This document shows, piece by piece, positions 48,203-64,000 of a DNA stretch of 64,000 bases (its first letter is position 1; every line of letters begins with the position of its first letter). A program made the position numbers and the translations under genes. The notes under the pieces were generated by a model. It searched no databases. It saw nothing but the letters and a program-made list of their open reading frames with translations, and had not been told where the DNA came from. This DNA comes from Chitinophaga caseinilytica. Lineage in GTDB: Bacteria; Bacteroidota; Bacteroidia; Chitinophagales; Chitinophagaceae. The stretch is taken from assembly GCF_038396765.1 (NCBI RefSeq), contig NZ_CP150096.1, positions 4,385,001-4,449,000 of the forward strand. The letters are read 5' to 3'.

Positions 48203-48598
48203 CTATTTCACATATAACGAATCGATCAAACCCGCCGCCGACCCGTCGTAGAAGCGGAAGTACTTGGGCCCGGGAGCACCGATGGCCAGGGAAAGCATAT
48301 GGCTGCGGGGAGTTGCCGATTGGCTGCAATCGGGCGTTTCGGCATTCCGACCCGCCAAACTGGAAATGACCAGCGTGTCGCCGTAAGTAATGGAGTGCAG
48401 CAGGGCGATGTCTTCACAGGCGCCGGCGAGCACCGTCACCTGCAGGCTCACCGCTTCGCCGCGGCGGATCGTGTCTGGCCCTTCCATGCGGGTTACGACC
48501 AGCTGGCGGACGACCCGCTCGGTTTCGGTTTCCTTGTCACATCCCCAAACGAACATCAATAAGGCCGCGACGAGCCCTGGCAGGAAGGTTTTCTTCAT
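48203..48598 (-). CDS. Small lipoprotein, paralogue of the neighbouring 48629-49027 gene
   Basis: 131 residues. Lipoprotein signal MKKTFLPGLVAALLMFVWGC (Cys20). The mature part is a predicted single beta-sandwich (VVTRMEGPDTIRRGEAVSLQVTVLAGACEDIALL) ending IDSLYVK. It shares the plan of its upstream neighbour: PDT followed by a verb-like strand, a central xxCexl cysteine, a second cysteine, a GPKYFRFYD/GKQFLILEA strand and an identical-style DSxYVK end. I do not recognise the family. It may be cotranscribed with its neighbour (30-bp gap). Confidence 0.72.
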   Translation of the reverse strand: MKKTFLPGLVAALLMFVWGCDKETETERVVRQLVVTRMEGPDTIRRGEAVSLQVTVLAGACEDIALLHSITYGDTLVISSLAGRNAETPDCSQSATPRSHMLSLAIGAPGPKYFRFYDGSAAGLIDSLYVK

Positions 48599-48628: not shown

Positions 48629-49027
48629 TTATTTGACATATACAGAATCCATTAGTTGCCCGTTTTCCGCCTCCAGGATGAGGAACTGCTTTCCCGGCGA
48701 CTTATACCGCCATTTCATGGTACCGATAACCTCCGGCAGCGAAGTATCGCACGACCGGCCCCGGTTCTCCCGTTCCGCCAAAACCCTGAACCAGGTCGTA
48801 TCCGGCGCATAGCGGCCGGCGTTGGCGGCGATCGTGAGCCGCTCGCAATTCGCGACCCTCGCCGCAACCGTTATATCAAAGGAAACATTCATGGCAACCG
48901 TATCCGGACATTCGAAGCGCAGCACCCGTGCCGGCCGCGACGTTCGTTTGAATGCGGGTTTGGAGCAGGTCCACGACATGAACAACGTGGCGCCGGCAAG
49001 CAGCACGGCGATCGGGGCTATTTTCAT
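48629..49027 (-). CDS. Small lipoprotein downstream of the giant adhesin gene
   Basis: 132 residues from the ATG at 49027 (MKIAPIAVLLAGATLFMSWTC); seven extra codons upstream are open but add a poor N-terminus. The lipobox MSWTC (Cys21) is weak but position and charge fit. The mature region is a beta-rich domain (RVLRFECPDTVAMNVSFDITVAARVANCERLTI) ending MDSVYVK, like the next gene. It lies 111 bp past the giant gene, beyond a terminator, on the same strand. Function unknown. Confidence 0.68.
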   Translation of the reverse strand: MKIAPIAVLLAGATLFMSWTCSKPAFKRTSRPARVLRFECPDTVAMNVSFDITVAARVANCERLTIAANAGRYAPDTTWFRVLAERENRGRSCDTSLPEVIGTMKWRYKSPGKQFLILEAENGQLMDSVYVK

Positions 49028-49076
49028 ACAGCATGAAATGATACCCATCTAAAACGTAACCACTTACATAATGTTA

Positions 49077-49138: not shown

Positions 49139-52100
49139 TTACCGGATCACGGTCACATCGCCTTTGATGATGAAGGCAGGGCCGAAGGTGGTCCGCTTGT
49201 AGGTGAGCCACCATACGAAGGTGCCTACATCCACAGGGCGGCCTTTGTACGTTCCGTCCCAACCCTGGTGCTGATCTTTGCTGATGTACACCAGTTCACC
49301 CCAGCGGTTGAAGATGCGCAGTTCGTATTCGTACATCGGGCCTCTCAGTACGGGGCGGAAGAGATCGTTCTTGCCGTCGCCGTTGGGAGAGAAGGCATTC
49401 GGTACTTCAGGCTTGCTGTCGCAATCTTTCACATCGATGGTGATTTCGTCCGTACTGCTGCCGCAATCGTTGAAGGCGGTCACGGTGTAGGTACCGGGCT
49501 CTTTCACTTCGATGGAAGCCGTGGTGGCACCAGTGCTCCAGAGGTAACGGCTGGCGTTCGTAGCGTTGGCTTTCAGCATGAAGCGGCGGCCGCGGCAGAT
49601 GATCGTATCGTTGCCCAGGTTCACCGTCGGCGGGCCGGCGATAGATACCTTGATGCTGTCGGTTTTGTAGCGGTCGCAGTACTTATCGAGTACGCCGAGT
49701 ACGTAGGTGCCGGGCTGGGTGATGGTTTTGATCGGATTGAGGTCGCCATCGTTCCAGCGGTACACGTTCACGTCAGGATGTCTTGCGTCTACGAGGATGC
49801 TGCTGCCGGGGCACATGTAGCGGTCGGGGCCGAGCTCGAGCTTCATGTCCGGGCGCTCGCTCACTCTCACGGCTTCCTTCACCACGCAATTGTCCCTGAA
49901 CACTGCCACCTGGTAAGTACCGGCCCTGCTCACTACGATGGAGTTGCTGGTTTCACCGGTAGCCCACTGGATGCGGCCTGCGTTGGTGTTGACGGTCAGC
50001 ATAACTGACTGGCCGGGGCAGATAGACGTGTCTCTGCTGAGGGTTACGTCTGGCGGCGGGTTCACCGTTACGTTCACGGTATCGATGGTGATACATCCGA
50101 GTTTGGTGACGCGTACCCAGAAGCGTTCCTGCGTGCTCACCGTGATGATGGGCGAGGTGGCGCCGGTGCTCCAGAGGTAGGTAGCGTTGCCTTCCACGGT
50201 AGCGTCCAGTTTAACGGACTGGCCGCGGCAGATGGTGGTGTCTTTCAGATCGATGAGCGGCATCGGGATCACACCCACTTCGATGGAATCGGCCGCTTCG
50301 CACATACCGTTGCTTACGGTCACTTTGTAGGTGCCTGCGCGGGTGATGCGGATGCGCTGGGTGGTTTCTCCGGTCGACCATCTGATCTGGTACCCGAAGT
50401 TGGCCGGGCCCGCATCCAGTACCATGCCGTTACCGCCGCATAGGCTGGTATCGCTGCCCAGGTTCACCACAGGCATTTGCAGGTAGTTGATGGTGTAGGT
50501 CACCGTATCGGACACACAACCGGTGATACCGTCGCGCACCACGAACGAGGCCGAAGTAGCGCCGTTCACGTTGAAGCGCGGGTTGCTGGAGGTCATCGGA
50601 ACGCTTACCGCATTGGCTGGCGTTACGCCTACCAGGGTGTATACCGGTCTGTTCACGTCGCCTTTGGTTTTCAAGGTGATGAACGGATTGGTAGAGCAGT
50701 TCGTGAACACTTCCGCCTGCAGTTCCGGTTTCGGACAGGGCAGTACGTGGATCTGCTGGATCACGTCGTCTGCCGCGTTGCCGCAATTGTCGGTCACTTT
50801 CCATCTTCTCGTGATGATATAACCGGCACACAGGTCAGGCGTATACGGGTCGATGGTGTATTGCACCTGTTTGGGGAAGCCTTCCGAGCAGTTGTCGGTC
50901 GCCGTCAGTGCGATCGGGGCTGTCGGGATGGCTTGTCCGCAGGTCAGCGTAATGTCTGCCGGGGGAGCGGCGATCACGGGTTTCACCGTGTCGATCACCA
51001 TGATTACCTGGCGCATTTCGTTGGCGTTGCCACAGTTGTCTACCGCCGTCCAGATATTAACGATCCGGTAAGAGCAGTTGCCCGGTACTGTTTCGCGGAA
51101 AGATCTGAACCTTACGGTTACACCGCCGCTGGGCGTACAGTTGTCGGTAGCGTTGATGCTCACCGGCGCGGGGAGCGCGTCGCACATCACCGTCGTATCT
51201 GCCGGTGCGGCCATGGTGAACGTCGGTTTGGTGGTATCCATCACCGTGATCACCTGCGTAGCGATGGCTACGTTGCCACATTCGTCGATGGCTTTCCAGG
51301 TGCGGGTCAGGCGGTAATTGTCGGCGCAACGGGTAGAAAGCGGGCGCTTGCTGAAGCTGTACTCGATCCGTACGTTGTTGCCGGAACAATTGTCGGTTGC
51401 GGTCATAACCGGTACCGAGGGCACTTCGCTGCAAGACAGCGTAATGTCGGTCGGCGGCAGGGTGGTGAAGACCGGCGCAGTGGTATCCTGTACCGTGATC
51501 GTCTGCGTTACCGTGGTTGCGTTGCCGCATTCGTCGGTAGCCGTCCAGGTGCGGATCAGGCGGTAGTTGTTCGCACAGGCGCCGGGGATGTCTTCGCGGC
51601 GTTCGTATTTCACGATGCGCACGTTCGCAGCGGGCGAGCAGTTGTCGGTGGCCGTCAGGTCCGGTTGAACCGGGATGGCGCTGCACTCAACCGTCGCATT
51701 TGCGGGAACAGGCATGTTGAACACGGGTTTGGTGTTGTCCACAACGGTCAGTACCTGCGTCACGGTGCGGGAGTTGCCGCATTCGTCGGTAGCCGTCCAG
51801 GTGCGGATGAGGCGATAGTTGTTCGCGCAGGCACCGGGGATGTCTTCGCGGCGTTCGTTCTTCACGATCGTCACGTTGGTACCGGAGCAGGCGTCGTTCG
51901 CCGAAAGGTCGGACTGTGCCGGGATGGCGTGGCACTCAACCGTAGCGTCTGCCGGAGTGGGCGTAGTGAATACCGGTGCGGTGGTATCTCTCACCGTCAG
52001 TACCTGCTGCACCGTGGTGCTGTTGCCGCACTCGTCGGTAGCGGTCCAGGTACGGATGAGGCGGTAGTTGTTCGCACAGGCGCCGGGGATGTCTTCACGG

Positions 52101-55100
52101 CGTTCGTTTTTCACCACCGTCACATTATTGCTGGCAGAGCAGTTGTCGGTTACGTTGAGGTTCGGCTGAACCGGGATGGCGCTGCATTCTACCGTAGCGT
52201 CTGCCGGCGTGCTGCCTACGAAAGTGGGACGGGTGGTGTCCTGAACGGTCAGCACCTGCGTCACCGTGCGGGTATTGCCGCATTCGTCGGTCGCGGTCCA
52301 GGTACGGATCAGGCGATAATTGTTCACGCATGCACCGGCGATGTCTTCGCGGCGTTCGCTCTTCACGGTCCTGATGGCGCTGGTAGCGGTACAGTTGTCG
52401 GTTACCGACAGGTCGGGCTGCGTCGGGATGGCGTCGCAATTCACCGTTACGTCGGCCGGTACCGGCATCGTGAAGTTCGGGCGTGTGGTATCCTGTACCG
52501 TGATCACCTGTGTCAGCACAGCGCTGTTGCCGCATTCGTCGGTAGCCGTCCAGGTGCGGATGAGGCGGTAATTGTTGGCGCATGCTCCGGCGATGTCTTC
52601 GCGGCGCTCGTTCTTCACGATGGTCACGCGGTTTTGTGCGGAGCAGTTGTCGGTAGCCGTGATATCAGGCTGTGCCGGCACGGCGTTACAATCTACGGTC
52701 GCATCCAGGGGAACCGGCAGGGCAAACACCGGTTTGGTCGTATCCTGTACCGTTACCACCTGGCGCACGGTGCGGGCGTTGCCGCAGGCGTCGGTAGCCG
52801 TCCAGGTGCGGATGAGGCGGTAGTTGTTGGCACATGCACCGGCGATGCTTTCACGGGTCTCGTTTTTCACAACTGTCACGTCGCTGGCGGCGGAACAGTT
52901 GTCGGTAGCCGTGAGGTCGGGCTGAACGGGGATGGCGTCGCAATTCACGGTCGTATCTGCCGGTGTGGGCATCATGAACGTGGGACGGGTGGTGTCTCTC
53001 ACCGTGATCACCTGGATCACTTTGGTGATATTGCCGCATCCGTCGTTGGCCGTCCAGGTGCGGAGCAACCTGTAATTATTGGCGCAGGCGCCGGGGATGT
53101 CGATATGTTCTTCTTCGAACTGAACATTGATGATACCTGCACAATTATCGCTGGCCGTGATCACGGGGCGCGCCGGGATGGCGTCGCAATTCACCGTGGT
53201 ATCAGCCGGGATCGGGGTGGTGAACACCGGCTTGGTACGGTCTGCCACGATGATGGTCTGCGTGAGCGTGGTGCTGTTGCCGCATACATCGGTGGCCGTC
53301 CAGGTACGGATGAGGCGATAAGTGTTGGCGCAGGTGCTGTCGATGCGCTGTTCGTTTTTCACGACGGTCACATTACCGGCGCAGTTGTCGGTGGCCGACA
53401 GGTCGGGCTGTGCGGGCACCTTGTCGCACTCTACCGTTGCGTTGGCAGGAGCGGAGCTGGTGAACACGGGGGCCGTGGTGTCTTGTACCGTTACGGTCTG
53501 CGATACGGTATTGAAGTTGCCGCATTCGTCGGTGGCCGTCCAGGTGCGGATCAGTTCGTAGTTATTGATGCAAGCGCCCGGGATATCGCGGCGGGTTTCG
53601 CTGAAGCGAACGGTCACGTTGTTGCCGGTGCTGCAATTGTCGGTAGCGTTCATGTTCGGTGCGGCGGGCACTTTATCGCAATCCACAGTGGTGTCAGCAG
53701 GTGCTGCGCTGGTGAACACGGGCGCTTTGGTGTCTACTACGGTGATGGTCTGCGTCACGGTCTGGGCGTTCCTGCACTCGTCGATCGCCGTCCAGGTGCG
53801 GATCAGCAGATAGTTGTTGGCACAGGCGCCGGGGATCGGGTTCCTGTTTTCGTTCTTCAGCACGGTCACTTTACCGGCCGGGCTGCAATTGTCGATGGCC
53901 GTGAGGTCGGGTTGTGCCGGGATCTCGTCACAATTCACCGTTACATCTGCAGGCGTAGGCATGGTGAACACGGGAGCGGTCCTGTCTTCTACGGTCAGCG
54001 TCTGCACGAACGTGGCGCTGTTGCCGCAGAGATCGGTAGCCGTCCAGGTGCGGCGCAGGCGGTAATTGTTGGTGCAGGCGCCGGATGTGCGGATGGTATC
54101 CACTTTCAGGGAAACGGTCACCTGGTTGCCCATGCTGCAATTATCCGTTGCGTTCACCGCAGGGGTGGCAGGGATGGCGTCGCAGCTCACGGTAGCGTCT
54201 GCAGGCTGTCCGTTCGGGAAGGAGAATACCGGTTTGGTGGTATCCTGTACGGTCACCAGCTGAACGTGTGTGCTGAAATTGCCGCAAAGGTCAGTGGCGG
54301 TCCAGGTACGGCGCAGCTGGTAGTTGCTGATGCAGGCGCTGTTTGCGCGGAGGGTATCGGTCTTCAGGTCGATGGTCACCATGTTGCCGGGCGTACAGTT
54401 GTCGGTTGCGGTCGGCATCGCGGCGGCAGGTACGGCGTCGCAGTTCACGGTTACGTTGGCAGGACGGCTCACCCAAACCATCACAGGCTTGGTGGTATCC
54501 TGTACGGTAACGGTCTGAACGTGCGAGATCGCGTTGCCGCAAAGGTCGGTAGCGGTCCAGGTGCGGCGCAGCTGGTAGCTGTTCACGCAGGCGTTGGAAG
54601 CGCGCACCGTATCCTGGCGGTAATCCATATCGATCTGGTTCACCGGTGTACAGTTATCCGTTGCCATAGCGGTTGCTGCGGCCGGGATGGCGTCGCAGTT
54701 CACGGTTACGTCGGCAGGACGGGCACCGGTCCATACCAGCACGGGGCGGGTAGTATCGCGGACGGTCACGGTCTGCACATGCGTAGCCACGTTGCCGCAA
54801 AGGTCGGTGGCGGTCCAGGTGCGGCGGATGGTGTAATTGCTCACACAAGCGCCCGGAGCGCGGGTGATCACGGAATCCATCACCAGTGTGATCTGGTTGG
54901 CAGGCGTACAGTTATCCGAAACGGTCGGTACCGGCCTAGCAGGAAGTGCGTCGCAATTGGCGGTCATATCCGCAGGCAATCCGCCCGTCCAGGTAAATTT
55001 CGGCATGGTCGTATCCTGTACGGTGATCAGCTGTTCCCAGCTGGTGCTGTTATTGCACAGGTCGGTAGCCGTCCAGATACGGCGGATGGTATAGCTGCTG

Positions 55101-58100
55101 ATGCAGGCGCCCGGAGCGCGGGTGATCACGGAGTCGCGGCGGATCGAGATCTGGTTGCCGGGCGTACAGTTATCGGTAGCGCTCGGCATCACTGCGCCGG
55201 GGATGTTATCGCAGTTCACCGTTACGTTGGCAGGAGCCGCGCCGTTCCACACGAGGGTGGGGCGGGTGGTGTCCTGAACGGTGATCAGTTGTTCGTGGGT
55301 GGATGCGTTGCCGCAGAGGTCGGTAACGGTCCAGATACGGCGGATCGTGTAATTGCTCACACACATGCCGGATACGCGGGTAATCACGGAATCGCGGCGG
55401 ATGGTGATCGCGTTGGCAGGCGTACAATTGTCCGTAGCCGTCGGCATCACTGCTGCAGGGATAGCGTCGCAATCTACGGTGATGTTGGCAGGACGGGCAC
55501 CGTTCCAAACGATGTTCGGGCGGGTGGTATCCTGAACGGTCACCAGTTGCTGGTGCGTATTCATGTTGCCGCAGAGGTCGGTGATCCTCCATCTCCGCAT
55601 GATCTGGTAGTTGCTTACGCAGGCACCGGGGGTACGGATGATGGTGGAGTCGTACACCATTGTAATTTGATTGGCCGGCGTACAGTTGTCGGTAGCGAGC
55701 GGGATCGCCCTGGCGGGGATGGCATCGCAATTCACCGTGATGCTGGCCGGTACGGTACCGTTCCATACAAATACAGGGCGCGTAGTGTCCTGTACGGTGA
55801 TGAGCTGCTCGTGGCGGGCCACGTTACCGCAGAGGTCGGTAGCCGTCCAGATACGGCGGATCGTGTAGTTGCTGATGCAACCCGTGGTCGGGCGCGTCAC
55901 TACGGAATCGCGGCGGATCGTGATCGCGTTGGCAGGCGTACAGTTATCGGTTGCCGTCGGCATTACTGCACCAGGGATGTTGTCGCAGTTCACGGTTACG
56001 TTGGCAGGAGCGATTCCAGCCCAAACCATCGTCGGACGGGTAGTGTCCTGCACCGTGATGAGTTGTTCCCAGGTAGTGCTGTTATTGCAAAGATCGGTAG
56101 CGGTCCAGATACGACGGATCGTATAGTTGCTGATGCAACCCGTAGTCGGGCGCGTCACAACGGAATCGCGGCGGATCGTGATCGCATTCGCAGGCGTACA
56201 GTTGTCGGTAGCCGTCGGCATCACCGCGCCGGGGATATTATCACAATTCACGGTGATATTGGCAGGACGGGTTCCAGCCCAAACCAGCATCGGACGGGTA
56301 GTGTCCTGAACGGTGATCAGTTGCTCCCAGGTGGTGCTGTTGTTGCAGAGATCGGTAGCCGTCCAGATTCTGCGGATCGTGTATTTGCTGATGCAATCGG
56401 CAGGATTGCGGGTGATCACGGAATCGCGGCGGATGGTGATCGCGTTGGCAGGCGTACAATTGTCCGTAGCCGTCGGCATCACTGCGCCAGGGATATTATC
56501 ACAGTTCACCGTTACGTTGGCAGGACGGGTGCCAGACCAAACCAGCGTCGGACGGGTGGTGTCCTGCACGGTAATCAGTTGTTCCCAGGTAGTGCTGTTG
56601 TTGCAGAGGTCGGTAGCCGTCCAGATACGGCGGATCGTGTAGTTGCTCGTGCAACCCGTGGTCGGGCGCGTCACTACGGAATCGCGGCGGATCGTGATCT
56701 GGTTAGCCGGCGTACAATTGTCGGTAGCCGTCGGCATCACCGCAGCAGGGATGTTGTCGCAGTTCACCGTTACGTTGGCAGGACGGGTGCCAGCCCAAAC
56801 CAATGTCGGGCGGGTAGTGTCCTGCACCGTGATGAGCTGCTCGTGTGAAATGGCGTTTCCGCACAGATCGGTAGCCGTCCAGATGCGGCGGATCGTGTAG
56901 TTGCTCATGCAACCCGTGGTCGGGCGCGTCACAACAGAATCGCGGCGGATCGTGATCCGGTTACCAGGCGTACAATTGTCGGTAGCGGTCGGCATCACGG
57001 CGCCGGGGATGTTATCGCAGTTCACGGTGATGTTGGCAGGACGGGCGCCGGTCCACACGAGGGTGGGGCGGGTCGTATCCCGCACCGTTACCAGTTGAAC
57101 ATGCGTATCGGTGTTACCGCACAGGTCGGTAGCGATCCAGGTGCGGCGGATCTGGTAGTTGGAGATGCAGGCGGTGCTTGTACGGAGCGTGTCGAGGCGG
57201 ATGGTGATCGCCACCTGGTTCGCAGGCGTACAGTTATCCGTAGCGGTAGCGGTTACTGTGGCGGGAACCGCGTCGCAATTCACCGTCGTATCGCGCGGAG
57301 CGCCATTTACGAAGGCAAGTACCGGGCGGGTAGTGTCTTGTACGGTGATGAGCTGTTCATAACGGGCCACGTTACCGCAGAGGTCGGTGGCCGTCCAGAT
57401 ACGGCGGATCGTGTAGTTGCTGATGCAACCCGTGGTCGGGCGCGTCACTACGGAATCGCGGCGGATCACGATCACGTTGGCTGCCGTACAATTGTCAGTA
57501 GCCGTCGGCATTACCGCGCCAGGGATATTATCACAATTCACGGTGATATTGGCAGGCCTTGTTCCAGCCCAAACCATCGTCGGGCGGGTGGTATCCTGCA
57601 CTGTGATAAGTTGCTCCCAGGTGATGCTGTTGTTGCAAAGATCGGTAGCGGTCCAGATACGACGGATCGTGTAGTTGCTCGTGCAACCCGTAGTCGGGCG
57701 CGTTACAACGGAATCGCGGCGGATCGTGATCGCATTCGCAGGCGTACAGTTGTCGGTAGCCGTCGGCATCACCGCACCAGGGATATTATCACAATTCACG
57801 GTGATATTGGCAGGACGGGTTCCAGCCCAAACCAGCGTCGGACGGGTAGTGTCCTGCACAGTGATCAGTTGCTCCCAGGTAGTGCTGTTATTGCACAGGT
57901 CGGTTGCCGTCCAAATGCGGCGGATCGTGTATTTGCTGATGCAATCTGCAGGATTGCGGGTGATCACCGAATCGCGGCGGATAGTGATCGCATTGGCAGG
58001 CGTACAGTTGTCGGTAGCCGTCGGCGTCACTGCGCCAGGGATGTTATCACAGTTCACCGTTACGTTGGCAGGACGCGTTCCAGCCCAAACCAGCATCGGA

Positions 58101-61100
58101 CGGGTAGTATCCTGCACGGTGATCAGTTGCTCCCAGGTGGTGCTGTTGTTGCAAAGATCGGTTGCCGTCCAGATGCGGCGGATCGTGTATTTACTGATAC
58201 AATCGGCAGGATTGCGGGTGATCACGGAATCGCGGCGGATGGTGATCGCGTTGGCGGCCGTACAGTTATCGGTAGCCGTCGGCATCACCGCGCCAGGGAT
58301 GTTGTCGCAGTTCACGGTTACGTTGGCAGGACGGGTACCAGCCCACACCAGCGTCGGACGGGTAGTGTCCTGCACAGTGATAAGCTGCTCGTGTGAAATG
58401 GCGTTACCGCACAGGTCGGTAGCCGTCCAGATGCGGCGGATCGTGTAGTTGCTCGTGCAACCCGTAGTCGGGCGCGTCACAACGGAATCGCGACGGATCG
58501 TGATCCGGTTGCCGGGCGTACAATTGTCGGTAGCGGTCGGCATCACCGCGCCGGGGATGTTATCGCAGTTCACAGTGATGTTGGCAGGTGCGGTAGTCGC
58601 CCAAACGAGTCGGGGGAGGGTGGTGTCCTGTACCGTGATCAGCTGGATGTGCGTATCGGTGTTACCGCACAGGTCGGTAGCGATCCAGGTGCGGCGGATC
58701 TGGTAGTTGGAGATGCAGGCGGTGCTTGTACGGAGCGTATCAAGGCGGATAGTGATCGTCACCTGGTTCGCAGGCGTACAGTTATCCGTTGCAGTTGCCG
58801 TTACAGTGGCAGGAACCGCATCGCAGTTAACCGTCGTATCGCGCGGAGCGCCATTTGCGAAGGCAAGCACCGGGTTGGTGGTATCCTGCACGGTGATCAG
58901 TTGCTCCCAGGTAGTGCTGTTATTGCACAGGTCGGTAGCCGTCCAGATGCGGCGGATGGTATAGTTGCTGATGCAACCCGTGGTCGGGCGCGTCACTACG
59001 GAATCGCGGCGGATAGTGATTGCGTTTGCAGCCGTACAGTTGTCGGTAGCCGTCGGCATCACCGCGCCAGGGATATTATCACAATCTACAGTGATATTGG
59101 CAGGACGGGTACCAGCCCAAACCAGCGTCGGGCGGGTGGTATCCTGCACCGTGATCAGTTGTTCCCAGGTGGTGCTGTTGTTGCAAAGGTCAGTAGCTGT
59201 CCAGATACGACGGATCGTGTAGTTGCTCGTGCAACCCGTGGTCGGGCGCGTTACAACGGAATCGCGGCGGATCGTGATCGCATTCGCAGGCGTACAGTTG
59301 TCGGTAGCCGTCGGCATTACAGCGCCAGGGATATTATCACAATTCACAGTGATGTTGGCAGGACGGGTTCCAGCCCAAACCAGCGTCGGACGGGTAGTGT
59401 CCTGCACAGTGATCAGTTGCTCCCAGGTAGTGCTGTTATTGCACAGGTCGGTGGCCGTCCAGATTCTGCGGATCGTGTATTTACTGATGCAATCGGCAGG
59501 ATTGCGGGTGATCACGGAATCGCGGCGGATCACGATCGCATTTGCAGGTGTACAGTTGTCGGTAGCCGTCGGCATTACAGCGCCGGGGATGTTATCACAA
59601 TTCACGGTGATATTGGCAGGACGGGTGCCGGCCCAAACCAGCGTCGGACGGGTAGTATCCTGCACGGTGATCAGCTGTTCCCAGGTGGTGCTGTTATTGC
59701 AAAGATCGGTTGCCGTCCAAATTCTGCGGATCGTGTATTTACTGATGCAATCGGCAGGATTGCGGGTGATCACCGAATCGCGGCGGATGGTGATCGCGTT
59801 GGCGGCCGTACAGTTATCGGTAGCCGTCGGCATCACCGCGCCAGGGATGTTGTCGCAGTTCACGGTTACGTTGGCAGGACGGGTGCCAGCCCACACCAGC
59901 GTCGGACGGGTAGTGTCCTGCACAGTGATAAGCTGCTCGTGCGAAATGGCGTTACCGCACAGGTCGGTAGCCGTCCAGATGCGGCGGATCGTGTAGTTGC
60001 TCGTGCAACCCGTAGTCGGGCGCGTCACAACGGAATCGCGGCGGATCGTGATCGAACCGGCAGGCGAACAGTTGTCGGTAGCGGACGGCATCACGGCGCC
60101 GGGGATGTTGTCGCAGTTCACAGTGATGTTGGCAGGTGCGGTAGTCGCCCAAACGAGTCGGGGGAGGGTAGTGTCCTGTACCGTGATCAGCTGGATGTGC
60201 GTATCGGTGTTACCGCACAGGTCGGTAGCGATCCAGGTGCGGCGGATCTGGTAGTTGGAGATGCAGGCGGTGCTTGTACGGAGCGTGTCGAGGCGGATGG
60301 TGATCGCCACCTGGTTCGCAGGCGTACAGTTATCCGTTGCAGTTGCCGTTACAGTGGCAGGAACCGCATCGCAATTCACCGTCGTATCGCGCGGAGCGCC
60401 ATTTGCGAAGGCAAGCACCGGGTTGGTGGTGTCCTGAACAGTGATCAGTTGCTCCCAGGTGGTGCTGTTATTGCACAGGTCGGTAGCCGTCCAGATGCGG
60501 CGGATCGTGTAGTTGCTGATGCAACCGGTGGTCGGGCGTGTCACAACGGAATCGCGGCGGATAGTGATTGCGTTGGTAGCCGTACAGTTGTCGGTAGCCG
60601 TCGGCATCACCGCGCCAGGGATGTTATCACAATCCACGGTGATATTGGCAGGACGGGTACCAGCCCAAACCAGCGTCGGGCGGGTGGTATCCTGCACCGT
60701 GATCAGTTGTTCCCAGGTGGTGCTATTATTGCAAAGGTCAGTAGCTGTCCAGATACGACGGATCGTGTAGTTGCTCGTGCAACCCGTGGTCGGGCGCGTC
60801 ACAACAGAATCGCGGCGGATCACGATCGCGTTGGCAGCCGTACAATTGTCCGTAGCAGTAGGCATCACCGCACCAGGGATATTATCACAGTTCACCGTTA
60901 CGTTGGCAGGACGCGTTCCAGCCCAAACCAGTGTCGGACGGGTAGTATCCTGAACGGTGATCAGTTGCTCCCAGGTGGTGCTGTTGTTGCAGAGATCGGT
61001 TGCCGTCCAGATACGGCGGATCGTGTATTTGCTAATGCAATCGGCAGGATCGCGGGTGATCACCGAATCGCGGCGGATCACGATCGCGTTGGCAGCCGTA

Positions 61101-64000
61101 CAATTGTCCGTAGCCGTAGGCATCACCGCGCCAGGGATGTTATCACAGTTCACCGTTACGTTGGCAGGCCGTGTTCCAGCCCAAACCAGCGTCGGACGGG
61201 TAGTGTCCTGCACCGTGATCAGTTGTTCCCAGGTAGTGCTGTTATTGCAAAGATCGGTAGCTGTCCAGATGCGGCGGATCGTGTATTTGCTGATACAATC
61301 GGCAGGATTGCGGGTGATCACCGAATCGCGGCGGATCACGATCGCGTTGGCAGCCGTACAATTGTCCGTAGCCGTCGGCATTACTGCGCCAGGGATATTA
61401 TCACAATTCACCGTTACGTTGGCAGGACGAGTGCCAGCCCAAACCAATGTCGGGCGGGTAGTATCCTGAACGGAGATCAATTGCTCCCAGGTAGTGCTGT
61501 TGTTACACAGGTCGGTAGCTGTCCAGATGCGGCGGATCGTATACACTCCGGCGCAATCTGCAGGATCACGGGTGATCACAGAATCACGGCGGATCACGAT
61601 CGCGTTAGCGGCCGTACAGTTATCAGTAGCCGTCGGCATCACCGCGCCAGGGATGTTATCGCAGTTCACCGTTACGTTGGCAGGCCGTGTTCCAGCCCAA
61701 ACCAGCGTCGGACGGGTGGTATCCTGCACGGTGATCAGTTGCTCCCAGGTTGTGCTGTTATTGCAAAGATCGGTAGCCGTCCAGATACGGCGGATCGTAT
61801 AATTGCTCGTGCAACCCGTAGTCGGGCGCGTCACAACGGAATCGCGGCGGATCGTGATCGCGTTGGCAGCCGTACAATTATCGGTAGCCGTCGGCATCAC
61901 TGCACCGGGGATGTTATCGCAGTTCACGGTAACGTTGGCCGGAGCCGCACCGGTCCACACGAGGGTGGGGCGGGTGGTGTCCTGCACCGTGATCAGTTGC
62001 TCCCAGGTAGTGCTGTTGTTGCAAAGATCGGTAGCCGTCCAGATACGGCGGATCGTGTAGTTGCTCGTGCAACCCGTGGTCGGGCGCGTCACAACAGAAT
62101 CGCGGCGGATGATGATCGCGTTGGCAGCCGTACAATTATCGGTAGCCGTCGGCATCACTGCGCCAGGGATGTTATCGCAGTTCACCGTTACGTTGGCAGG
62201 GCGGGTGCCAGCCCAAACCAATGTCGGGCGGGTGGTGTCCTGCACCGTGATCAGTTGCTCCCAGGTAGTGCTGTTGTTGCAGAGATCGGTTGCCGTCCAG
62301 ATACGGCGGATCGTGTATTTGCTGATGCAATCGGCAGGATCGCGGGTGATCACCGAATCGCGGCGGATTACGATCGCGTTGGCAGCCGTACAATTGTCCG
62401 TAGCCGTCGGCATCACTGCGCCAGGGATATTATCACAGTTCACCGTTACGTTGGCAGGACGGGTTCCAGCCCAAACCAGTGTCGGGCGGGTAGTATCCTG
62501 CACGGTAATCAGTTGCTCCCAGGTGGTGCTGTTATTGCAAAGATCGGTCGCCGTCCATATACGACGGATCGTGTATTTGCTGATGCAATCGGCAGGATTG
62601 CGGGTGATCACCGAATCGCGGCGGATCACGATCGCGTTGGCAGGCGTACAATTGTCCGTAGCCGTCGGCGTCACCGCACCGGGGATATTATCACAGTTCA
62701 CCGTTACATTGGCAGGACGGGTGCCAGCCCAAACCAGCGTCGGACGGGTAGTGTCCTGCACCGTGATCAGTTGCTCCCAGGTGATGCTGTTGTTGCAAAG
62801 ATCGGTAGCTGTCCAGATGCGGCGGATCGTGTATTTGCTGATACAATCGGCAGGATTGCGGGTGATCACCGAATCGCGGCGGATCACGATCGCATTGGCA
62901 GCCGTACAATTGTCGGTAGCCGTCGGCATCACCGCGCCAGGGATGTTATCGCAGTTCACGGTTACGTTGGCAGGACGCGTTCCAGCCCAAACCAATGTCG
63001 GGCGGGTAGTGTCCTGTACCGTGATGAGTTGTGTATGGGTGGAAGCGTTACCGCAAAGGTCAGTCACCGTCCAGTTGCGGCGGATCGTGTATTTACTGAT
63101 GCAATCGGCAGGATTGCGGGTGATCACGGAATCACGTTTGATCGTGATCGCATTCGCAGCAGCGCAGTTGTCGGTAGCAGTGGGGTTGATCGCTCCGGGG
63201 ATGTTGTCACAATTCACCGTCACGTCTGCAGGCGCAGCACCACTCCAGATGATCGTCGGCGGAACATTGTCCACCACCCTCACGATCTGGATCCTTTCCG
63301 ATTTGTTGCCGCAGGCGTCGGTCGCCGTCCAGGTACGTTTCAGCCAGTAAGTGTTCTGGCAGGAGTTGGCCACCCCGGTCCTGATGGTATCCTGGGTATA
63401 ATCCAGTCTTACGGTCACCCCGGCAGGCAGACAGTTGTCGGTCACCGTGGGCGTCACCGCAGCAGGAATGGCGTTACAGCTTGCATTCAGCGTATCAGCC
63501 AATCCAGGGCTCCACGTCATGGTGGGTTTCGATGTATCCACCACCGTGATCCGCTGGGTATGAATCGCTTCGTTATTACAATTGTCTTTCGCCGTCCAGG
63601 TGCGGATCAGCACATAATTATTCACGCAGGTACCGGTAAACGATGCGTCACGAACGGTATTCACCGTCACGGTCACCGCCGCGTCTGCCGTACAATTATC
63701 CGTTGCGGATGCCGTGATGGCCGCCGGGATCGCCGAGCAGCTCACCGTCGTATCCACAGGGGCGCGGCCGCCGGGGAATTGCAGCACCGGCTTCTTCGTA
63801 TCCGTCACCGTGATGGTCTGGGAAGTGGTCACTTTCAATCCGCAAGGGTCTTCGGCCGTCCAGGTACGGGTGATGGTCATGCCGCAGGTGTTGTTCACCG
63901 TAACATCGGCATGCGTGATGGTAAGCGTCAGTCCCAGCGGATGCTGGAACGTAGGTGTGCCGAACAGTGTCGTATAATCGAACGTTTTGTCGCACTCGCG
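49139..64000 (-). CDS. Giant cysteine-rich HYR/Ig-like repeat protein with T9SS type B sorting domain (5' end beyond window)
   Basis: At least 4,953 codons; the frame is open to base 64000 with no stop, so the N-terminus and signal peptide lie outside. In protein order: about 52 HYR-like repeats (64000 to 50738), one transitional module (about 88 residues, CPKPELQAEVFTNC), five Ig-like units of about 70 residues with STGET/STGAT patterns (50471-49425), and a final domain (about 95 residues, VPNAFSPNGDGKNDLF; LRIFNRWGELVY; GWDGTYKGRPVDVGTFVWWL) that is the gliding-motility-associated CHU_C C-terminal domain, the signal for type IX secretion (type B). Each HYR repeat has about four Cys (VNCD, DNCT, xxC near residue 55, DLC), so over 200 in all, suggesting disulfide-stabilised rods outside the cell. 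Likely a surface adhesin or a SprB-like gliding filament; the ligand is unknown. A possible GTG at 63898 is not the true start. Confidence 0.93.
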   Translation of the reverse strand, partial: RECDKTFDYTTLFGTPTFQHPLGLTLTITHADVTVNNTCGMTITRTWTAEDPCGLKVTTSQTITVTDTKKPVLQFPGGRAPVDTTVSCSAIPAAITASATDNCTADAAVTVTVNTVRDASFTGTCVNNYVLIRTWTAKDNCNNEAIHTQRITVVDTSKPTMTWSPGLADTLNASCNAIPAAVTPTVTDNCLPAGVTVRLDYTQDTIRTGVANSCQNTYWLKRTWTATDACGNKSERIQIVRVVDNVPPTIIWSGAAPADVTVNCDNIPGAINPTATDNCAAANAITIKRDSVITRNPADCISKYTIRRNWTVTDLCGNASTHTQLITVQDTTRPTLVWAGTRPANVTVNCDNIPGAVMPTATDNCTAANAIVIRRDSVITRNPADCISKYTIRRIWTATDLCNNSITWEQLITVQDTTRPTLVWAGTRPANVTVNCDNIPGAVTPTATDNCTPANAIVIRRDSVITRNPADCISKYTIRRIWTATDLCNNSTTWEQLITVQDTTRPTLVWAGTRPANVTVNCDNIPGAVMPTATDNCTAANAIVIRRDSVITRDPADCISKYTIRRIWTATDLCNNSTTWEQLITVQDTTRPTLVWAGTRPANVTVNCDNIPGAVMPTATDNCTAANAIIIRRDSVVTRPTTGCTSNYTIRRIWTATDLCNNSTTWEQLITVQDTTRPTLVWTGAAPANVTVNCDNIPGAVMPTATDNCTAANAITIRRDSVVTRPTTGCTSNYTIRRIWTATDLCNNSTTWEQLITVQDTTRPTLVWAGTRPANVTVNCDNIPGAVMPTATDNCTAANAIVIRRDSVITRDPADCAGVYTIRRIWTATDLCNNSTTWEQLISVQDTTRPTLVWAGTRPANVTVNCDNIPGAVMPTATDNCTAANAIVIRRDSVITRNPADCISKYTIRRIWTATDLCNNSTTWEQLITVQDTTRPTLVWAGTRPANVTVNCDNIPGAVMPTATDNCTAANAIVIRRDSVITRDPADCISKYTIRRIWTATDLCNNSTTWEQLITVQDTTRPTLVWAGTRPANVTVNCDNIPGAVMPTATDNCTAANAIVIRRDSVVTRPTTGCTSNYTIRRIWTATDLCNNSTTWEQLITVQDTTRPTLVWAGTRPANITVDCDNIPGAVMPTATDNCTATNAITIRRDSVVTRPTTGCISNYTIRRIWTATDLCNNSTTWEQLITVQDTTNPVLAFANGAPRDTTVNCDAVPATVTATATDNCTPANQVAITIRLDTLRTSTACISNYQIRRTWIATDLCGNTDTHIQLITVQDTTLPRLVWATTAPANITVNCDNIPGAVMPSATDNCSPAGSITIRRDSVVTRPTTGCTSNYTIRRIWTATDLCGNAISHEQLITVQDTTRPTLVWAGTRPANVTVNCDNIPGAVMPTATDNCTAANAITIRRDSVITRNPADCISKYTIRRIWTATDLCNNSTTWEQLITVQDTTRPTLVWAGTRPANITVNCDNIPGAVMPTATDNCTPANAIVIRRDSVITRNPADCISKYTIRRIWTATDLCNNSTTWEQLITVQDTTRPTLVWAGTRPANITVNCDNIPGAVMPTATDNCTPANAITIRRDSVVTRPTTGCTSNYTIRRIWTATDLCNNSTTWEQLITVQDTTRPTLVWAGTRPANITVDCDNIPGAVMPTATDNCTAANAITIRRDSVVTRPTTGCISNYTIRRIWTATDLCNNSTTWEQLITVQDTTNPVLAFANGAPRDTTVNCDAVPATVTATATDNCTPANQVTITIRLDTLRTSTACISNYQIRRTWIATDLCGNTDTHIQLITVQDTTLPRLVWATTAPANITVNCDNIPGAVMPTATDNCTPGNRITIRRDSVVTRPTTGCTSNYTIRRIWTATDLCGNAISHEQLITVQDTTRPTLVWAGTRPANVTVNCDNIPGAVMPTATDNCTAANAITIRRDSVITRNPADCISKYTIRRIWTATDLCNNSTTWEQLITVQDTTRPMLVWAGTRPANVTVNCDNIPGAVTPTATDNCTPANAITIRRDSVITRNPADCISKYTIRRIWTATDLCNNSTTWEQLITVQDTTRPTLVWAGTRPANITVNCDNIPGAVMPTATDNCTPANAITIRRDSVVTRPTTGCTSNYTIRRIWTATDLCNNSITWEQLITVQDTTRPTMVWAGTRPANITVNCDNIPGAVMPTATDNCTAANVIVIRRDSVVTRPTTGCISNYTIRRIWTATDLCGNVARYEQLITVQDTTRPVLAFVNGAPRDTTVNCDAVPATVTATATDNCTPANQVAITIRLDTLRTSTACISNYQIRRTWIATDLCGNTDTHVQLVTVRDTTRPTLVWTGARPANITVNCDNIPGAVMPTATDNCTPGNRITIRRDSVVTRPTTGCMSNYTIRRIWTATDLCGNAISHEQLITVQDTTRPTLVWAGTRPANVTVNCDNIPAAVMPTATDNCTPANQITIRRDSVVTRPTTGCTSNYTIRRIWTATDLCNNSTTWEQLITVQDTTRPTLVWSGTRPANVTVNCDNIPGAVMPTATDNCTPANAITIRRDSVITRNPADCISKYTIRRIWTATDLCNNSTTWEQLITVQDTTRPMLVWAGTRPANITVNCDNIPGAVMPTATDNCTPANAITIRRDSVVTRPTTGCISNYTIRRIWTATDLCNNSTTWEQLITVQDTTRPTMVWAGIAPANVTVNCDNIPGAVMPTATDNCTPANAITIRRDSVVTRPTTGCISNYTIRRIWTATDLCGNVARHEQLITVQDTTRPVFVWNGTVPASITVNCDAIPARAIPLATDNCTPANQITMVYDSTIIRTPGACVSNYQIMRRWRITDLCGNMNTHQQLVTVQDTTRPNIVWNGARPANITVDCDAIPAAVMPTATDNCTPANAITIRRDSVITRVSGMCVSNYTIRRIWTVTDLCGNASTHEQLITVQDTTRPTLVWNGAAPANVTVNCDNIPGAVMPSATDNCTPGNQISIRRDSVITRAPGACISSYTIRRIWTATDLCNNSTSWEQLITVQDTTMPKFTWTGGLPADMTANCDALPARPVPTVSDNCTPANQITLVMDSVITRAPGACVSNYTIRRTWTATDLCGNVATHVQTVTVRDTTRPVLVWTGARPADVTVNCDAIPAAATAMATDNCTPVNQIDMDYRQDTVRASNACVNSYQLRRTWTATDLCGNAISHVQTVTVQDTTKPVMVWVSRPANVTVNCDAVPAAAMPTATDNCTPGNMVTIDLKTDTLRANSACISNYQLRRTWTATDLCGNFSTHVQLVTVQDTTKPVFSFPNGQPADATVSCDAIPATPAVNATDNCSMGNQVTVSLKVDTIRTSGACTNNYRLRRTWTATDLCGNSATFVQTLTVEDRTAPVFTMPTPADVTVNCDEIPAQPDLTAIDNCSPAGKVTVLKNENRNPIPGACANNYLLIRTWTAIDECRNAQTVTQTITVVDTKAPVFTSAAPADTTVDCDKVPAAPNMNATDNCSTGNNVTVRFSETRRDIPGACINNYELIRTWTATDECGNFNTVSQTVTVQDTTAPVFTSSAPANATVECDKVPAQPDLSATDNCAGNVTVVKNEQRIDSTCANTYRLIRTWTATDVCGNSTTLTQTIIVADRTKPVFTTPIPADTTVNCDAIPARPVITASDNCAGIINVQFEEEHIDIPGACANNYRLLRTWTANDGCGNITKVIQVITVRDTTRPTFMMPTPADTTVNCDAIPVQPDLTATDNCSAASDVTVVKNETRESIAGACANNYRLIRTWTATDACGNARTVRQVVTVQDTTKPVFALPVPLDATVDCNAVPAQPDITATDNCSAQNRVTIVKNERREDIAGACANNYRLIRTWTATDECGNSAVLTQVITVQDTTRPNFTMPVPADVTVNCDAIPTQPDLSVTDNCTATSAIRTVKSERREDIAGACVNNYRLIRTWTATDECGNTRTVTQVLTVQDTTRPTFVGSTPADATVECSAIPVQPNLNVTDNCSASNNVTVVKNERREDIPGACANNYRLIRTWTATDECGNSTTVQQVLTVRDTTAPVFTTPTPADATVECHAIPAQSDLSANDACSGTNVTIVKNERREDIPGACANNYRLIRTWTATDECGNSRTVTQVLTVVDNTKPVFNMPVPANATVECSAIPVQPDLTATDNCSPAANVRIVKYERREDIPGACANNYRLIRTWTATDECGNATTVTQTITVQDTTAPVFTTLPPTDITLSCSEVPSVPVMTATDNCSGNNVRIEYSFSKRPLSTRCADNYRLTRTWKAIDECGNVAIATQVITVMDTTKPTFTMAAPADTTVMCDALPAPVSINATDNCTPSGGVTVRFRSFRETVPGNCSYRIVNIWTAVDNCGNANEMRQVIMVIDTVKPVIAAPPADITLTCGQAIPTAPIALTATDNCSEGFPKQVQYTIDPYTPDLCAGYIITRRWKVTDNCGNAADDVIQQIHVLPCPKPELQAEVFTNCSTNPFITLKTKGDVNRPVYTLVGVTPANAVSVPMTSSNPRFNVNGATSASFVVRDGITGCVSDTVTYTINYLQMPVVNLGSDTSLCGGNGMVLDAGPANFGYQIRWSTGETTQRIRITRAGTYKVTVSNGMCEAADSIEVGVIPMPLIDLKDTTICRGQSVKLDATVEGNATYLWSTGATSPIITVSTQERFWVRVTKLGCITIDTVNVTVNPPPDVTLSRDTSICPGQSVMLTVNTNAGRIQWATGETSNSIVVSRAGTYQVAVFRDNCVVKEAVRVSERPDMKLELGPDRYMCPGSSILVDARHPDVNVYRWNDGDLNPIKTITQPGTYVLGVLDKYCDRYKTDSIKVSIAGPPTVNLGNDTIICRGRRFMLKANATNASRYLWSTGATTASIEVKEPGTYTVTAFNDCGSSTDEITIDVKDCDSKPEVPNAFSPNGDGKNDLFRPVLRGPMYEYELRIFNRWGELVYISKDQHQGWDGTYKGRPVDVGTFVWWLTYKRTTFGPAFIIKGDVTVIR
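49425..50471 (-). repeat. Five Ig-like units before the C-terminal sorting domain
   Basis: Units of 68-72 residues share the plan LGxDTxxCxGxxxxLDA ... YxWSTGxTT ... IxVxxxGTYxVxV ... C. They resemble SprB/PKD-like stalk domains and are much more diverged than the HYR array. Confidence 0.8.
50738..64000 (-). repeat. Tandem array of about 52 HYR-like repeats, period about 258 bp
   Basis: Most units are exactly 86 codons (258 bp); the ones nearest the C-terminus are shorter (about 80-84). A typical unit runs TRPTLVWAGTRPANVTVNCD ... TATDNCT ... IRRDSVITR ... YTIRRIWTATDLCNN ... EQLITVQDT. Three forms of the middle are reused: ITRNPADCISKY, VTRPTTGCTSNY and LRTSTACISNY. Units 4-35 from the left edge are close to identical; units 36-52 and the first three are diverged. 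Confidence 0.92.
55784..60427 (-). repeat. Higher-order repeat: three tandem copies of a 1,548-bp six-domain block
   Basis: Copies at 58880-60427, 57332-58879 and 55784-57331. Each begins with a LAFxNGAPRDTTVNCDAVPA domain, then a domain ending CGNAISHEQ, then four ordinary domains. The landmark of the first domain (GRTWIATDLCGNTDTH region, plus-strand anchor positions 57159, 58707, 60255) recurs at exactly 1,548 bp (6 x 258). The domain after the last copy, starting at 55783, is a diverged relative. Confidence 0.88.

Follow-up and report, generated by a model that had tools for sequence, protein, structure and literature searches.

We analysed a window of 64,000 bp from Chitinophaga caseinilytica (G000:C1:4385001-4449000; the source genome, G000, is one contig of 6,517,700 bases), in which a giant gene on the minus strand, extending past the window, encodes an array of 50 domain-sized units. 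The units are organised as a higher-order repeat, with a six-unit block of 1548 bp recurring in tandem, and near relatives differ by whole blocks of their own kind. We consider it very likely that the gene encodes a stalk protein, secreted by the type IX secretion system (T9SS), that changes its length through recombination in block-sized steps.

The open frame runs from window position 49139 to window-coordinate 66163, with 5674 amino acids (aa) between stops. Cut at a conserved Cys, the protein yields units of exactly 86 aa (258 bp) at positions 3-35, of 87 and 89 aa at positions 1 and 2, and of 80-86 aa at positions 36-50. The Pfam profile for HYR_4C (PF23237), an immunoglobulin (Ig)-like domain, places them in that family with 852 bits against a curated cut-off of 27, and the type B sorting-domain profile TIGR04131 matches residues 4866-4937 with 51 bits against a curated cut-off of 35. 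The features are, in window coordinates:

49139..64000, minus strand: window part of the giant gene, its open frame continuing to window-coordinate 66163
49160..49405, minus strand: C-terminal T9SS type B sorting domain (TIGR04131 / CHU_C PF13585), from Pfam and NCBIfam profiles
50942..63739, minus strand: array of 50 HYR_4C-like units, from cutting at Cys and from Pfam PF23237 (47 stretches, E 1.5e-263)
50942..55729, minus strand: units 32-50, the older flank, 91-97% identical to their positional C. rhizosphaerae counterparts and less alike among themselves
55730..60889, minus strand: higher-order repeat region, units 12-31, 3 1/3 copies of the 1548-bp six-unit block, from lag-6 unit identities of 83-98% and fourfold sites
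55784..60427, minus strand: three 1548-bp copies (about units 14-31) of a preliminary description, from the lag scan and unit identities
57020..57277, minus strand: unit 26, where the marker domain occurs for the third time, with 86-87% identity to units 14 and 20
58568..58825, minus strand: unit 20, second copy of the marker domain, from unit cutting and identities
60116..60373, minus strand: unit 14, a distinctive marker domain found again six and twelve units on (units 20 and 26); units 14 and 20 share 98% identity (dS 0.06)
60890..62953, minus strand: units 4-11, homogenised (78-94% mutual identity) and without a clear block

Self-identity across 49139-64000, scanned at lags of 50-6999 bp, was highest at lag 1548 (0.597; 0.587 at lag 258). 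Compared unit by unit, identity within units 3-35 was 0.852 at lag 6 and 0.812 at lag 12, as against 0.738-0.780 at lags 1-5 and 7-11; within units 14-31 the corresponding values were 0.905, 0.861 and 0.734-0.785. When unit order was permuted 5000 times, no permutation gave so large an excess at lag 6 in either set of units, and the same held when the statistic was taken over any lag. The preliminary description of this DNA had proposed a monomer plus a higher-order unit and had suggested just this self-comparison, which bears the proposal out. It had also placed three block copies at 55784-60427, a length of 4644 bp that does equal 3 x 1548, and this was one third of a copy short: the lag-6 signal spans 20 units (12-31), from 93% identity for the pair 12/18 and 98% for 14/20 to 83% for 25/31, before dropping to 68% for 26/32. 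The block organisation is thus real and larger than first stated. An older, eroded copy had been suspected just 5' of the block, where units 12 and 13 turned out to be 93-94% identical to 18 and 19, as close as other lag-6 pairs; this stretch belongs to the block repeat itself, and we reject the idea of erosion. The six domains, described as different, are unequally so, unit 14 being only 61-65% identical to units 15-19 while units 16 and 17 share 89%.

The same period is seen at silent positions. At fourfold-degenerate sites of units 12-31, identity was 0.808 at lag 6, 0.722 at lag 12 and 0.553-0.642 at the other lags from 1 to 15, and again 0 of 5000 permutations matched the lag-6 excess, which argues for shared descent of the block copies rather than protein selection alone. 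Block copies are therefore more alike than the monomers within a block, at all sites and at silent sites. Nonsynonymous divergence (dN) between lag-6 pairs was 0.005-0.124 and synonymous divergence (dS) 0.06-0.54; the low dN relative to dS suggests purifying selection.

The N-terminal part of the protein matched three near relatives, Chitinophaga rhizosphaerae T16R-86 (93%), ‘C. pinensis isolate 3’ (65%) and C. deserti XJ-2 (64%). G000 has 50 units and C. rhizosphaerae (draft) 44, both with a period of 1548 bp, so that the difference is exactly six; the whole genes differ by 1541 bp, or 1548 less 7. ‘C. pinensis isolate 3’ has 52 units and C. deserti (draft) 59, with a period of 1806 bp (7 x 258), a difference of exactly seven units and of 1803 bp. 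In register, units 1-3 of G000 align with C. rhizosphaerae unshifted and units 25-27 and 30-50 with a shift of six, best matches between them being mixed, and units 35-52 of ‘C. pinensis isolate 3’ align with C. deserti at a seven-unit shift. Since each difference matches the period of its own pair, the two members of a pair are one such block apart. The protein length expected to vary between strains does vary, at the scale of species.

The array has also been homogenised separately in each lineage. For nearly half of the G000 units (24 of 50, every one of them in the range 4-30) the closest unit is found in their own gene and not in C. rhizosphaerae, and the same is true of 34 of 50 when the comparison is with C. 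deserti. For the unit-13 type, dS was 0.10-0.18 within C. rhizosphaerae, 0.24-0.76 within the G000 gene and 0.46-1.07 between the two, as compared with 0.08-0.33 for flank orthologues. Similarity within the gene at the centre and to orthologues in the flanks indicates that the centre is renewed in each lineage and that the edges are older, a satellite-like pattern of lineage-specific homogenisation with diverged edges to which unit 26 is the exception.

The gene is found throughout the genus: its C-terminal part of 599 aa was present in all 79 Chitinophaga genomes searched, partial only in G006. In the wider family 23 of 147 sampled genomes gave a match; three of these are Chitinophaga, and the 20 others, with frames of 450-1950 aa, cover part of the query at no more than 39% identity. 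Gene pieces were taken from 63 of the 79 genus genomes, chosen mainly for long frames, with 16 left without; the collection holds 68 pieces, one of them (G025) from outside the genus, and loci L035, L037, L046, L050 and L054 were left out of later tables. The period was scored as the lag of the best match per 150-bp window. To be measurable a gene needed an uncut 5' end, a start that could be recognised and a modal lag, which left 49 genes; dropped were 11 cut at the 5' end, the startless G000, G014b, G062, G078 and G084, as well as G014c and G010a, and G071, which had no repeat windows. By a crude criterion, which asks for 45 or more repeat windows with 40% or more of them sharing a single lag of over 420 bp, 25 of the 49 carry a higher-order repeat. 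In G082 and G052 the block is 1071-1074 bp long, and other block lengths are 1815 bp (G070), 1209 bp (G001), 1275 bp (G093) and 1329 bp (G019); the number of domains per block, about 2-9, was estimated from block length.

The repeat that has been amplified also varies. In G082, G070, G020 and G079 (L085, L107, L047, L082) the corresponding gene has amplified another Ig-like or Pfam-unnamed repeat, not HYR_4C, and the close relatives G067 (L095) and G084 (L112), with C-termini 89% identical, amplified other seeds: a 531-bp unit resembling G000 units 1-2, in a block of 1593 bp, in G067, and a 267-bp unit in G084. Highly repetitive relatives also matched unrelated Pfam families; no stretch in these matches passed, and they were set aside as repeat artefacts.

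In some clades gene lengths form a ladder. Sixteen pairs share a period (modal lags equal within 1.2%) and have a C-terminal identity of 0.85 or higher; in every one of them the length difference is a whole number of blocks to within 34 aa, zero in seven pairs and one or more in nine. At C-terminal identities of 0.81-0.84, 8 of 11 pairs lie within 20 aa of whole blocks; the remaining 24 of the 51 pairs, below 0.67, are within 50 aa and too distant to carry weight. The genes of G048, G050 and G053, with a seven-domain unit of 1827-1830 bp (609-610 aa), are 4667, 5275 and 5883 aa long, in steps of 608 aa, and contain 1.90, 2.93 and 3.91 block copies; G048 was used here although it falls below the 40% criterion (0.35). 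G014a and G070 (5269 and 6484 aa; 4.01 and 5.95 copies) differ by two blocks with a residual of +3 aa, G082 and G063 by one block with a residual of -5 aa, and G063 has 5186 aa and 6.61 copies to the 5533 aa and 7.66 copies of G052. G014, G070, G063 and G082 are single-contig genomes. Together with the six- and seven-unit differences between species, the 608-aa ladder supports the earlier suggestion that the gene grows in multi-domain, in-frame steps.

Several observations weigh against growth by whole blocks. The pair criteria were set after the lengths had been seen, and the 16 pairs are not independent. G002 differs from G082, G052 and G063, the three non-fitting pairs of the 11, by 3.44-3.47 blocks. 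G007, G064, G066 and G088 are equal in length, yet the copies detected in them number 0.57-1.82, perhaps since older ones no longer reach the 80% threshold; and the value fitted across nine genes is 465 aa, rather than 608, for each copy detected. G018a and G019a, whose C-termini are 99.8% identical but whose periods are unlike, differ by 1501 aa, no multiple of the 443-aa block of G019a; and G024 and G083, in which no clear block is seen, are about five units apart. The one-block difference of the G018a/G043 multiples, with a period of two domains, carries little weight. Two of these length differences, neither of them explained by whole blocks (G018a/G019a and G024/G083), would be expected of an ordinary monomeric array that grew mostly by single domains, its lag-6 peak left by a one-off block duplication with no lasting role. 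Units 4-11 lack a clear block as well. In a shuffle test of 23 genes chosen for constant unit length, three (G020, G073, G078) peaked at one unit above all 12 shuffles and six (G015, G024, G044, G076, G085, G096) did not rise above their shuffles, but in 14 of the 23 the modal lag was two units or more and above all 12 shuffles. In G082 and G052, moreover, identity is about 98% between block copies but reaches only about 41% for the best match no more than one domain away, and the ladders of some clades are ladders of blocks. We regard such a mostly monomeric history as unlikely.

The comparison of near relatives has its own weak points, among them that the unit counts of C. rhizosphaerae and C. 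deserti lean on draft scaffolds, and that C. deserti carries an identical 1085-bp tract at lag 7 in its draft assembly. The six-unit gap can be placed in several ways, with scores of 0.8968-0.8984 for positions after units 8-18, and two-gap alignments are slightly better in both pairs (0.8992 vs 0.8984; 0.8995 vs 0.8989). The change may have been a gain in G000 or a loss in C. rhizosphaerae, dS being 0.06-0.28 for pairs 12-17/18-23 and 0.08-0.33 for flank orthologues. Homogenisation is uneven, as the dS of 0.24-0.76 among unit-13-type units of G000 shows, and for unit 26 the dS to its C. rhizosphaerae counterpart, 0.23, is lower than the values to units 14 and 20 (0.38, 0.46). The length differences rest on comparison between species. 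Finally, the G000 copy has a 5' frame break: the signal-peptide-like start, judged by eye in the N-terminal region P0001, lies in another frame than the giant frame, and the two frames overlap near L010:1737-2163 (genome about 4450737-4451163, outside the window). The gene is thus either broken, frame-shifted in translation or hit by a sequence error; the C. rhizosphaerae copy (draft) is a single intact frame of 5723 aa, and intact long frames occur in relatives.

A sequence error at this break would be in keeping with the idea that the three block copies are themselves a misassembly of the repeat. Repeat genes of this kind do break assemblies, two G003 contigs (L027, L028) ending inside the array and a G067 contig beginning inside the gene, and draft genomes may accordingly understate array length. 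The G000 genome, however, is one contig; its lag-6 copies differ by 2-17% and hence are not one copy read three times; the separate draft assembly of C. rhizosphaerae has an equal six-unit period; and blocks are also present in single-contig genomes of other species. Misassembly is in our judgement highly improbable. Equally little probability attaches to a functional requirement for the six-domain order, with similar domains recurring every six units without block duplication, for although the low dN at lag 6 and a marker domain (14/20/26) clearly unlike its neighbours would suit it, the lag-6 peak at fourfold sites rules out an order kept only by protein selection, and the period varies between relatives (6 vs 7) and across the genus.

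Growth by recombination in block-sized steps is also suggested by where long identity lies. Over lags 1-12 the G000 gene has eight exact tracts that are 80 bp or longer, seven of them at lag 6 and the eighth at lag 12. Homologous recombination in bacteria requires long identical stretches, so the block register would be favoured and the step size would sustain itself. In the history that we infer, a block of adjacent domains was duplicated in tandem, and the copies would then have contained most of the long identical stretches, so that homologous recombination between them would occur mostly in block register. Unequal exchange would thereby add or remove whole blocks, six domains at a time in G000, with the frame kept, while recombination and conversion would keep homogenising the array as both ends diverge like ordinary orthologues. 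A change of length might itself be advantageous.

A broader reading, which we hold tentatively and at somewhat less than even likelihood, is that the length of this genus-wide surface gene is quantised and self-locking: each lineage would have its own block of about 2-9 domains and, in some clades, its own length ladder, and the block would let neighbouring domains stay different in some lineages (as with the 41% DNA identity of the best nearby match in G082 and G052) in an array that is still recombinogenic. Were this so, dissimilar neighbours could ease the misfolding problem of identical adjacent domains. The locus brings together evolution of the satellite type and a conserved coding gene of bacteria for which nature provides many replicates, one locus in dozens of species with varied block sizes. 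What sets the size of an expansion step, and why multi-domain steps are common, could be tested in environmental bacteria, both comparatively and through laboratory evolution.

Around the gene, two small open reading frames lie directly downstream on the minus strand (window 48203-48598 and 48629-49048; 131 and 139 aa), whose starts resemble, by eye, those of lipoproteins. Among 35 loci whose neighbourhoods were compared, a serA-like gene was present in 14 and an ispE-like gene in 7, both names being putative, and many loci stop short of the flank. Four further genes with type B sorting domains occur in the genome (G000:C1 1414758, 2803159, 3306808 and 4270036; frames of 3930-5324 aa), three of them with a PorP/SprF match directly behind.

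The sorting domain predicts secretion by the T9SS and a location at the cell surface. An AlphaFold2 model of units 13-15 (30 sequences) consisted mostly of beta strands, with a mean predicted local distance difference test score (pLDDT) of 90.7 and a predicted template modelling score (pTM) of 0.63; it would fit a stalk of Ig-like domains, the orientation of the domains being uncertain. The best 50 of 1057 Foldseek matches had query TM-scores of 0.24-0.43 and were mostly cadherin-type extracellular repeats, with a chitinase, an RTX adhesin repeat and SraP also among them; scores this low lend support to a generic Ig-like stalk only. A sequence search of solved structures gave no convincing match (best E 0.27), and Ig_7 matched the N-terminal region below threshold.

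SprB-type gliding adhesins are likewise very large, repetitive T9SS clients with a type B sorting domain. Unlike them, the giant gene has no adjoining PorP/SprF gene, none of the eight PorP_SprF matches in the genome lying beside 4434139-4452722. At the DNA level the array recalls the higher-order repeats of alpha-satellite, which consist of monomers and a higher-order unit, with a homogenised centre, diverged edges and lineage-specific homogenisation; alpha-satellite is non-coding centromeric DNA, whereas the Chitinophaga repeat keeps its frame and a low dN. We found no report of higher-order repeats or block-sized ladders in a bacterial surface gene among the papers listed, as judged by titles and abstract openings and with few subscription papers covered.

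Multi-domain expansion is familiar from other proteins. Arrays of repeated domains often lengthen by more than one domain at once, by seven in nebulin, with duplications in the middle of the array (Bjorklund et al., 2006; PMC1553488). The fixed multi-domain unit is shared with nebulin, a eukaryotic muscle protein, while the present gene is bacterial and without introns. The Olduvai triplets of NBPF (PMC11675761) are monomers in higher-order units whose copy number varies between related species, as here; NBPF genes are primate genes with monomers of about 1.6 kb. The closest concept is that of the Periscope Proteins (SasG, Aap, Rib, Sgo_0707), described in the accessible portions of two reports (PMC8201768; PMC9704523) as surface proteins of tandem folded domains with high DNA identity and variable repeat number, for which recombination has been proposed. 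The giant protein resembles them as a predicted bacterial surface protein with tandem folded domains of high DNA identity, to go by the lag-6 copies and the three-unit model. Repeat number varies in Periscope Proteins between closely related strains and in the giant protein between related species. Two other marks of Periscope Proteins are an elongated rod, shown by experiment, and a functional ligand-binding domain at the N-terminus, the region where the giant protein has the sub-threshold Ig_7 match. The step in Periscope Proteins, as those portions have it, is one repeat unit, whereas in the T9SS-type protein of Chitinophaga it comprises a number of distinct domains, about 4-7 of them in several clades.

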